This document shows, piece after piece, positions 3 to 8,904 of a stretch of DNA of 10,664 nucleotides. This DNA comes from JACPSX01 sp035288405 [NCBI: bacterium] (GTDB lineage: Bacteria; JACPSX01). A program made the position numbers and the translations under genes. Location of the stretch: the NCBI GenBank assembly GCA_035288405.1, contig DATEAK010000160.1:1-10664 (forward strand). The letters are read 5' to 3'. The notes under the pieces were generated by a model. That model was not told where the DNA came from. It saw only the letters and a program-made list of their open reading frames with translations, and searched no databases. How positions within the stretch are numbered: the stretch's first letter is position 1; each line of letters begins with the position of its first letter.

Positions 3-1358
3 GCTATTACAGCCTTGGAGGCGGAACCGACCGCGACCTGCATCCCCACGCTGAAAACCATCGCCGGGCTTTTGTTCTTCTCCGCAGGTATCACACGGCG
101 GCGGGCCTATGCCGGGGAAGAGATCGTGTTTCGAGCCGCCGCCTGCACAGGCGCGCTTTATCATATCGACTTCTACCTAGTCTGCGGGAACTTGCCGGGG
201 CTGGAGTCCGGAGTCTATCACTTCAGCGTGCAGGACTTCTCACTGCGAAAGCTGCGGACGGGAGATCACCGTGAGGTCCTCGTGAAAGCCGGCGGAGGGG
301 AGTCTTCTCTGAAAACCGCTCCCGCCATTCTCATCTGTTCCGGAACATTCTGGAGGAACGCCTGGAAATACCGGGCCCGCACCTATCGACACTGCTTCTG
401 GGACAGCGGTACGATTCTCGCGAACCTGCTGGGCGTCTCGGAGGCCTTTGAGGTTCCATCCCGGATCGTAGGAGGCTTCATCGACTCCGAGGTCAATCAG
501 CTTCTGGATCTGGACCCGGACCGCGAGGTGGCACTGGCCCTCGTTTCCCTGGGGAAGAGCCAGACCCCTCCCCCTGAAATTCCCTACCATGCCGACCCCC
601 TGTCTCTTCCGACCGCGCCGTTGTCCAAGTCCCAGATTGACTACCCGGCCATCCGGGCCATGCACGCCGCCTCCTCACTCCAATCCGAGTCCGAAGTCAT
701 GGACTGGCGCGGCTCCACGGCGGCGGCGGATAGCCGCTCTCCTGTGGGGTCGCTCTTCTCTCTCCGTCCTCAAACGGACGCCGAGATTCCAGTGGATTCC
801 ATCTCCCAGGTGATTCTCAGAAGAGGCTCCACCCGGCAGTTCGCCCGGGAGCCGATCTCATTCGTCCAACTCTCCACGATGTTGGAGCGGGCAACGCGAG
901 GGATCCCGGCGGATTTTCTTACGCCAGCGGATGCCATGATCAATCAGATGTACCTCATCGTAAACGCCGTGGAGGATCTCCCGGCCGGAGCCTATGTGTT
1001 CCACCGGGACCTCCGGGCCCTCGAGCTGCTTAAAGAGGGGGACTTTCGCGGGGAGGCCGGTACCCTGGGACTCGAACAAGCACTGCCCGCGGATGCGAGC
1101 GTGAATGTTTATTTCCTCACCGATCTCACTCCGATCCTGGAGCGCTTCGGAAACCGGGGTTACCGGGCCGCCCAGCTCGAAGCCGGAATCATCGGTGGGA
1201 AGCTTTACCTGGCGGCCTATGCCCAGCGCCTGGGTGCCAGCGGCCTTACTTTCTACGATGATGACGTGACGTCGTTTTTTTCACCACATGCTGCGGGTAA
1301 AAGCGTCATGTTCCTAACCGCCCTGGGCAAGTCCAAGAAGCAAAGCTCTTCTCAATAA
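3..1358 (+). CDS. SagB/ThcOx-like double-domain nitroreductase, 5' truncated
   Basis: The frame is open to the left window edge, so the start codon lies outside; the TTG at 15 is only the first possible internal start. Two nitroreductase-like (FMN-binding fold) domains are visible. The first (nt ~60-560) contains LLFFSAGITRR, an FRAAACTGALYHIDFY stretch followed by GVYHF, and KYRARTYR near nt 366, which resemble the SagB-type PSxGxLxxxxxY...GxYxY and KYxxRxYR patterns. The second (nt ~800-1340) begins with RRGSTRQF (nt 819-842) and ends with GIIGGKLYLAAYAQRLGASG followed by TFYDDD. SagB proteins are FMN-dependent dehydrogenases that oxidise azolines in thiazole/oxazole-modified peptides. Stand-alone two-domain relatives are common and their substrates are mostly unknown. 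No YcaO, SagC or precursor-peptide gene is seen here, so a bacteriocin role is not supported inside the window. Family call fairly sure, substrate unknown. Confidence 0.8.
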   Translation, partial: AITALEAEPTATCIPTLKTIAGLLFFSAGITRRRAYAGEEIVFRAAACTGALYHIDFYLVCGNLPGLESGVYHFSVQDFSLRKLRTGDHREVLVKAGGGESSLKTAPAILICSGTFWRNAWKYRARTYRHCFWDSGTILANLLGVSEAFEVPSRIVGGFIDSEVNQLLDLDPDREVALALVSLGKSQTPPPEIPYHADPLSLPTAPLSKSQIDYPAIRAMHAASSLQSESEVMDWRGSTAAADSRSPVGSLFSLRPQTDAEIPVDSISQVILRRGSTRQFAREPISFVQLSTMLERATRGIPADFLTPADAMINQMYLIVNAVEDLPAGAYVFHRDLRALELLKEGDFRGEAGTLGLEQALPADASVNVYFLTDLTPILERFGNRGYRAAQLEAGIIGGKLYLAAYAQRLGASGLTFYDDDVTSFFSPHAAGKSVMFLTALGKSKKQSSSQ

Positions 1359-3227
<1,869 letters not shown>

Positions 3228-5131: not shown

Positions 5132-5599
5132 TTAGTGGGCCTGCAGTTTTCGGAGAACCTCCAAGGACTCGCGAGAGTGCCGCTCGAAATCCCGCGGGTC
5201 GTCGATGATATGCCGCACGAACCCATCGGGGTCAATGAGGAAGGTACGGCGGGCGGCGATTTTTTTCTCTTCGTCGTATGTGCCATAGGCCCGCGAAGCT
5301 TCGTAGTTCGGCCAATCACCCAACAGCGGGAAAGTAAGACCGAGCTGGCGGGCAAAAGCCGCTGCGCTGGGCGATGGATCCACGCTCACGCCGAGGATCT
5401 GCGCCTTCAGCTCACCGAAGGAAGGAGAGCATTCACCGAATGCCGTGAATTCCTTCGTTCAACCGCCGGTGAACGCCAGCGGATAAAAAGCGAGCACCAC
5501 CCACTTCGAACCCTTGTAAGAAGAGAGATGAACCGTCTCATTCGTGTTTCCGTCGCGCAGTGCAACGTCCGGAGCTGTGTCGCCGACTGCTGGTGCCAT
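5132..5599 (-). CDS. selenocysteine-containing peroxiredoxin (AhpE/Bcp-like), UGA read as Sec47
   Basis: Read from ATG 5599 (GGAGGGGG five bases upstream) to TAA 5132, the frame is 156 codons with one in-frame TGA at 5459-5461 (codon 47). Both sides are clearly one peroxiredoxin. The N-terminus is [17 protein letters not shown], then [14 protein letters not shown]. After the TGA comes [10 protein letters not shown], then [23 protein letters not shown] and [10 protein letters not shown]. The TGA falls on the peroxidatic cysteine of the PxxxTxxC motif (P40, T44, U47); the catalytic Arg is probably R117. Such enzymes reduce H2O2 and organic peroxides in the cytoplasm. A SECIS-like hairpin follows the TGA. 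The only cysteine is C57, a possible resolving residue. Length (155) is normal for the family. The gene sits between an LLM oxidoreductase and a dehydrogenase on the same strand. A nonsense mutation is the alternative, but the exact site, intact flanks and hairpin argue against it. Gene callers would report only the 3' half. Confidence 0.9.
5416..5461 (-). promoter_or_regulatory. bacterial SECIS element of the peroxiredoxin gene, with its UGA
   Basis: One base after the UGA (5459-5461), CGAAGGAA (5457-5450) pairs perfectly with UUCCUUCG (5423-5416). Inside, after an internal loop of 6 and 5 nt, GCAUUC (5443-5438) pairs perfectly with GAAUGC (5434-5429), leaving GGU at the tip (5437-5435). The first tip G is the 22nd base after the UGA. 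Bacterial SECIS hairpins lie within the coding sequence just after the UGA and present G residues early in the apical loop for SelB; E. coli fdhF has a GGU about 18 nt after its UGA. The match in place and loop sequence is good; function is inferred. Confidence 0.82.
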
Positions 5600-8168: not shown

Positions 8169-8205
8169 GAGACTGACCTAGCGGACTACAACATCCGTCA
8201 TTAAA

Positions 8206-8352: not shown

Positions 8353-8385
8353 CATCCATCCACATTTTGCCAGGGGAGGATGATC

Positions 8386-8904
8386 ATGTCCACGGAGCAA
8401 GTTCCTGAGGCTCTCGATCCGAACATCCGCAATCGGGACATCGTCGTGGAAGCCGACGCGGAAACACTTGAGAAAATGCTGAAGATGGGGCACGTGCGCG
8501 GGTTCACCGTGATGTGCGACGAGGGGGCGCGGGTCGGCGGGGATGATACGGCGCCCTCTCCTCTCGCCTACTTCACGATCGGGATTGGTTTCTGACTGCT
8601 CACTCAAGTTGCCCGGTACGGGCAAATGATGAAGGTCCAGATCGATAAGGCACGGGTGCGGGTGACGGGGAAGTTCCATTCGGAAGGTTCCGTTCTGGCC
8701 CAGACGATCCAGGCTCACTGCCAGGGAGTGGAGACTCACCTGGAAGTGGAGTCCCCGGATCCTCCTGAAAAGGTGGCCGGTGTGATTCGCAACGCGGAAA
8801 ATGGTTGTTACACGATCCAGGCCATCAAAGATCCGGCTCCCGTGCAGACCACGGTGTCGCTCAACGGCCAGCCGTTCGATTGGGAATCCTACGCCAACAA
8901 ATAG
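8386..8904 (+). CDS. selenocysteine-containing OsmC-like peroxidase, UGA read as Sec70
   Basis: ATG 8386 has GGGGAGG six bases upstream. The frame runs 173 codons to TAG 8904 with one in-frame TGA at 8593-8595. Before it come APSPLAYFTIGIGF; after it LLTQVARYGQMMKVQIDKAR, then NAENGCYTIQAI and SLNGQPFDW. This is the OsmC fold pattern xPxPLxYFxxGxxxC-LxTxxxxxA, with the TGA at the first catalytic cysteine; the second conserved cysteine is C141. OsmC/Ohr-type proteins use this Cys pair to reduce organic hydroperoxides. OsmC-like selenoproteins have been reported from marine metagenomes, which supports Sec. A GGU-tipped hairpin follows the TGA. The total of 172 residues suits the family, whereas each half alone lacks part of the fold. 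A pseudogene is the alternative, made unlikely by the site, the hairpin and the second case in this window. Confidence 0.9.
8593..8625 (+). promoter_or_regulatory. bacterial SECIS element of the OsmC-like gene, with its UGA
   Basis: After the UGA (8593-8595), TTGCCC (8609-8614) pairs perfectly with GGGCAA (8620-8625), presenting GGTAC at the tip; if the G-C across it also pairs, the loop is GUA. The first G of GGU is the 20th base after the UGA, almost the same place as in the peroxiredoxin gene of this window. Only a weak lower stem (CTG/CAG, 8596-8598 and 8638-8640) is visible. Placement and loop fit bacterial SECIS rules. Confidence 0.8.

Follow-up and report, generated by a model that had tools for sequence, protein, structure and literature searches.

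The window analysed here (the whole stretch of DNA, 10,664 nt) contains, on its forward strand, a locus that under translation table 11 shows as two short ORFs. Both lie in the same frame and are joined by a single TGA codon, and the question is therefore whether they are the two parts of one gene, in which the TGA is read as selenocysteine (Sec), or whether the TGA is a true stop, a defect or a codon with another meaning. The original prediction had proposed the first of these, namely an OsmC-like selenoprotein with Sec at the first catalytic cysteine.

Reading frame and family of the OsmC-like gene

If the TGA is read as Sec, positions 8386-8904 of the forward strand encode one protein of 172 amino acids, with Sec at residue 70 (U70) and a cysteine at residue 141 (C141), ending at the TAG at 8902-8904. 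Between the ATG and this TAG, the TGA at 8593-8595 is the only one in frame, and the nearest in-frame stop upstream of the gene is a TAG at 8179. The features of the locus are as follows.

8373..8379, forward strand: Shine-Dalgarno-like GGGGAGG ahead of the ATG at 8386, read from the sequence
8386..8904, forward strand: predicted OsmC-like selenoprotein gene, 172 aa with one in-frame TGA; evidence from Pfam, NF041052, alignment and dN/dS
8593..8595, forward strand: TGA predicted to be read as selenocysteine, residue 70, motif U-L-L-T; the same codon is TGA in 10 relatives and Cys in 22
8610..8624, forward strand: hairpin of a predicted bacterial SECIS, stem 8610-8615 with 8619-8624, loop GUA at 8616-8618
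8806..8808, forward strand: codon of Cys141, the likely resolving partner; Cys in 33 of 34 aligned sequences

The gene is preceded by a pirin-family gene and by a gene for an RRM RNA-binding protein, which adjoins it upstream on the same strand; downstream of it, on the opposite strand, lie two genes for ABC transporter ATP-binding proteins. The two ABC genes resemble livF/urtE and livG, with scores below the cut-offs of those models.

The joined protein scored 51.7 bits against the Pfam OsmC model (PF02566, cut-off 27.5), while the downstream half alone reached 25.3 bits, and the upstream half alone matched no family in the profile search. The joined protein thus outscores either half, which argues that the stop-spanning frame is more than a product of chance. 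Against the NCBIfam model NF041052.1 (OsmC_like_Se, OsmC-related (seleno)protein), the read-through protein scored 187.2 bits (cut-off 95) over model positions 2-144 of 144, and no difference was found between the window gene and this family. The NF041052 cut-off was passed by none of the 14 named control genomes. The translation and the joined family scores thus bear out the original prediction that the two pieces form a full OsmC-like protein, which a standard annotation would present as two small ones.

Among solved structures, the OsmC-like protein 3cje could be aligned over residues 38-149, and has the motif C-V-M-T at U70 and K-G-C-F at C141, i.e. it carries Cys where the window protein would have Sec. 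By profile, the Ohr/OsmC hydroperoxide resistance proteins 1vla, 3eer and 6mjn belong to the same superfamily as the window protein. A structure prediction of the window protein, made from two sequences, gave a mean pLDDT of 30.6 and was set aside as unusable.

Conservation of the TGA codon and of the hairpin that follows it

A scan of genome contigs gave one relative, L001, which is 91% identical, has TGA at the same codon, and comes from a Candidatus Tectomicrobia groundwater MAG (genome G001). The order and strands of the genes around L001 are like those in the window, as judged by eye from ORFs of like sequence. In the comparison of the two genes, the TGA is unchanged and dN/dS is close to 0.05 on either side of it, at 0.053/1.06 over codons 1-69 and 0.036/0.73 over codons 71-169.

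In a search of 386 genomes, 32 places were found at E 1e-20, and 11 of them passed the NF041052 cut-off. Ten of these contain one TGA each and are spread over six genomes (G001, G048, G138, G276, G349 and G364); the remaining one, in G323, contains no stop, reaches 95.1 bits together with its in-frame neighbours, and has Cys at column 70. Three TGA-bearing genes above the cut-off are present in G138, and three in G276. A search of 116 genomes at E 0.001 gave matches in 69, two of them above the NF041052 cut-off, and four TGA-containing places (in G001, G048, G098 and G061).

The window gene, all 32 places at E 1e-20 (the G001 gene entering as its copy L001) and the weaker TGA-bearing L022 were combined in an alignment of 34 rows; the weaker matches of the 116-genome search stand outside it, except L022 and those that recurred in the 386-genome search. 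Column 70 is TGA in 12 rows (the window gene, ten subfamily genes and L022) and Cys in the other 22, while column 141 is Cys in all rows but L008, which has Ser. The frame runs on past the TGA in each of the 11 NF041052 subfamily rows that bear one. These 11 rows have C-[YF] as the second motif, whereas most of the Cys rows have C-P-[VA]. The expectation that U70 would fall at the first catalytic cysteine column, and that homologues would show Cys or Sec there and Cys at position 141, was thus satisfied in 34 and 33 of the 34 rows, respectively.

The six-pair stem after the TGA (columns 24-29 with 33-38) was compared in 11 aligned genes, namely the window gene and the ten above. Paired cells made up 92.4%; the mean of the shuffles was 72.0%, and sliding the partner strand gave 19.7-57.6%. 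Cells changed on both sides numbered 10, against a shuffled mean of 2.7. Among 500 shuffles, none attained the covariation score of the stem, 0.491, while 43 reached the count of pairs with changes on both sides and 36 that of further pair types, all to be read with the consideration that related sequences can exceed such shuffles. When 48-nt stretches were folded singly, two of the 11 were clear of their shuffles, that of the window (z -2.81) and that of L060 (z -2.54), and the other nine were not clearly better. Cys homologues folded as a control gave no comparable hairpin, a result of little weight as it covers just 2 of the 22 such genes. At gathering thresholds, Rfam matched no SECIS family in the whole window, but only a TPP riboswitch (RF00059, 64.7 bits, window 1405-1515, forward strand), which lies upstream of thiC.

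In the window hairpin, the distance from the TGA to the loop is 20 nt. Both this distance and the loop are usual for bacterial SECIS elements. Taken together, the hairpin evidence fits a predicted bacterial SECIS.

These data bear on two readings in which no Sec would be inserted. According to the first, the TGA arose by a recent nonsense mutation or is a sequencing error, and the locus is a decaying OsmC pseudogene. Taken alone, one in-frame stop in a single gene would agree with this; however, a TGA at the same codon occurs in 10 other genes, down to 39% identity, dN/dS is low on both sides of it, and the hairpin after it covaries, so that we regard a pseudogene as scarcely credible. According to the second, the locus encodes two proteins, a short N-terminal peptide and a C-terminal piece that is started independently at the ATG at 8626. 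This ATG, which is also found in L001, opens a 92-aa ORF to which the partial Pfam OsmC match of 25.3 bits belongs. Yet the C-terminal piece is under the Pfam cut-off and devoid of the catalytic residue, and the original prediction thus stood up to the refuting case of an independent downstream piece; moreover, the frame spans the TGA throughout the subfamily, and the very bases that follow the TGA are those of the covarying hairpin. We consider two separate proteins very improbable, and one read-through selenoprotein the preferred interpretation.

Probable selenocysteine decoding in relatives and in a second gene of the window

The Sec machinery was assessed in the genomes of relatives. Genes for selB were found above cut-off in all six genomes that hold the ten TGA-bearing genes, and selA in five of the six. 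The genome in which selA was not found is G001, the closest relative; since G001 is a MAG and its selB is located 269 bases from a contig start, sequence may be missing there. Two selD genes were also detected above cut-off in G001, L048 (C120) and L049 (C175), each with one in-frame TGA, and L049 lies on the same contig as selB. No tRNA-Sec was found in G001 among the 150 of 508 candidates that were scored, the three over cut-off being identified by ARAGORN as one tRNA-Trp and two tRNA-Ser. The G001 contigs that carry selB, selD or the OsmC gene gave no tRNA with ARAGORN, which may miss tRNA-Sec, and neither did the window or the initial 20 kb of the G048 contig. Six genomes (G323, G046, G070, G032, G052 and G092), which have matches to the NF041052 model but none bearing a TGA in the 116- or 386-genome search, were used for contrast: selB was present in two of them and absent from four at E 1e-60.

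It should also be considered that UGA might be translated as tryptophan, or as some other residue, if the code were changed or a suppressor were present. The frame at 8386-8904 is indeed open under such a code. However, column 70 is Cys, not Trp, in the homologues that lack the TGA, and in the window, to whose genes this check was confined, the SagB-like, ThiC, ADH, LLM oxidoreductase, pirin, RRM and two ABC genes are all open under table 11. Furthermore, the in-frame TGAs in the family-supported genes of the window are two, and both are located at catalytic Cys positions. We judge such a reading of UGA to be extremely unlikely. The second of the two TGAs belongs to a separate gene:

5132..5599, reverse strand: AhpC/TSA peroxiredoxin, second likely selenoprotein gene, with a TGA at 5461-5459 in T-G-G-U

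This gene scored 121 bits against PF00578, and the hairpin after its TGA has a z of -3.27. A peroxiredoxin gene of G001 is 90% identical and has its TGA at the corresponding residue. The 2005 survey (PMC1088965) gives TXXU as the motif of peroxiredoxin selenoproteins. The window peroxiredoxin is thus likely to be a selenoprotein as well, and independently supports the view that the organism from which the window derives decodes Sec. Two peroxiredoxin relatives with one in-frame TGA were also found elsewhere, L089 (G048:C5:40802-41170) and L090 (G364:C3:28758-29234).

On the TGA/Cys column, the dN/dS values, the family scores and the covarying hairpin, the pseudogene, recoding and two-gene readings were rejected. 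The window gene is almost certainly a selenoprotein gene of the OsmC/Ohr superfamily, subfamily NF041052, with UGA 70 decoded as Sec.

Proposed function and relation to known OsmC selenoproteins

From sequence, covariation and the gene content of relatives, we infer that the UGA at codon 70 would be decoded by SelB and Sec-tRNA with the aid of the SECIS hairpin just downstream, so that selenium would be incorporated at this codon. The further steps are modelled on the chemistry of OsmC/Ohr proteins, in which a peroxidatic cysteine reacts, a resolving partner follows, and thiols reduce the product. By analogy, Sec70 would replace the peroxidatic cysteine and attack a hydroperoxide or a similar oxidant; the resulting selenenic acid would form a selenenylsulphide with Cys141, the presumed resolving partner; and a cellular thiol would then reduce the Sec70-Cys141 selenenylsulphide. 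The 'peroxidatic' role of residue 70, and with it a peroxidase activity of the protein, are to be taken as putative in the same sense.

The original prediction, in noting that such selenoproteins are rarely annotated, had implied novelty, and this part did not hold. OsmC-like selenoproteins with a UXXT motif and a predicted SECIS were described in the 2005 Sargasso Sea survey (PMC1088965), and were listed again in the 2008 ocean survey based on Global Ocean Sampling (PMC2398784) and in reviews of 2022 and 2026 (PMC9312934, PMC13188914); NF041052 is in addition a dedicated NCBI model. Compared by description, the Sargasso Sea/Global Ocean Sampling family shares with the window gene the OsmC family, the UxxT motif (U-L-L-T in the window) and a predicted SECIS after the UGA, and differs in that it comes from ocean metagenomes, while the closest relative of the window gene is from a groundwater Tectomicrobia MAG.

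The window gene is therefore very probably a further, well-supported member of the known OsmC-like selenoprotein family. It provides a clean and checkable example from a poorly sampled bacterial lineage, and the comparison of the hairpins strengthens the case for the SECIS of the family. By itself the gene raises no new question. The literature listings and passages covered contained no account in which an OsmC selenoprotein had been assayed biochemically.

Two TGA-bearing genes fall outside the NF041052 subfamily. L022 (from G098; gene at 1500-1895 of L022, reverse strand; motif U-T-S-M) and L030 (from G061; gene at 1441-1932 of L030, forward strand; motif U-M-S-M) both have TGA at the catalytic column and are below the NF041052 cut-off; L022 scored 56.3 bits against that model and 66.2 bits against Pfam OsmC, above the Pfam cut-off. 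Both selA and selB are present in G098, and selB was not found in G061. The folds downstream of the TGA in L022 and L030 were no better than shuffles (z -1.07 and 0.12). This divergent group may represent an unlisted subfamily of OsmC selenoproteins, and two or more separate OsmC subfamilies, NF041052 and the U-[TM]-S-M group with its two genomes, may share Sec at this one catalytic site; the latter proposal is tentative and on balance somewhat doubtful. Because of the weak downstream folds, and because selB was missing from one of the two genomes, the divergent group stays a lead.

No relatives of the OsmC-like gene were found in a scan of viral contigs, and six plasmid records gave distant matches to it, with identity of 29.8% or less. 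The whole window matched 75 plasmid records; the five matches listed all fall within 1914-3128, which is the thiC gene. At the other side of the TPP riboswitch, a SagB-family dehydrogenase-like gene (window 3-1358, forward strand; TIGR03605, 158.2 bits in two matched stretches) runs off the start of the window.
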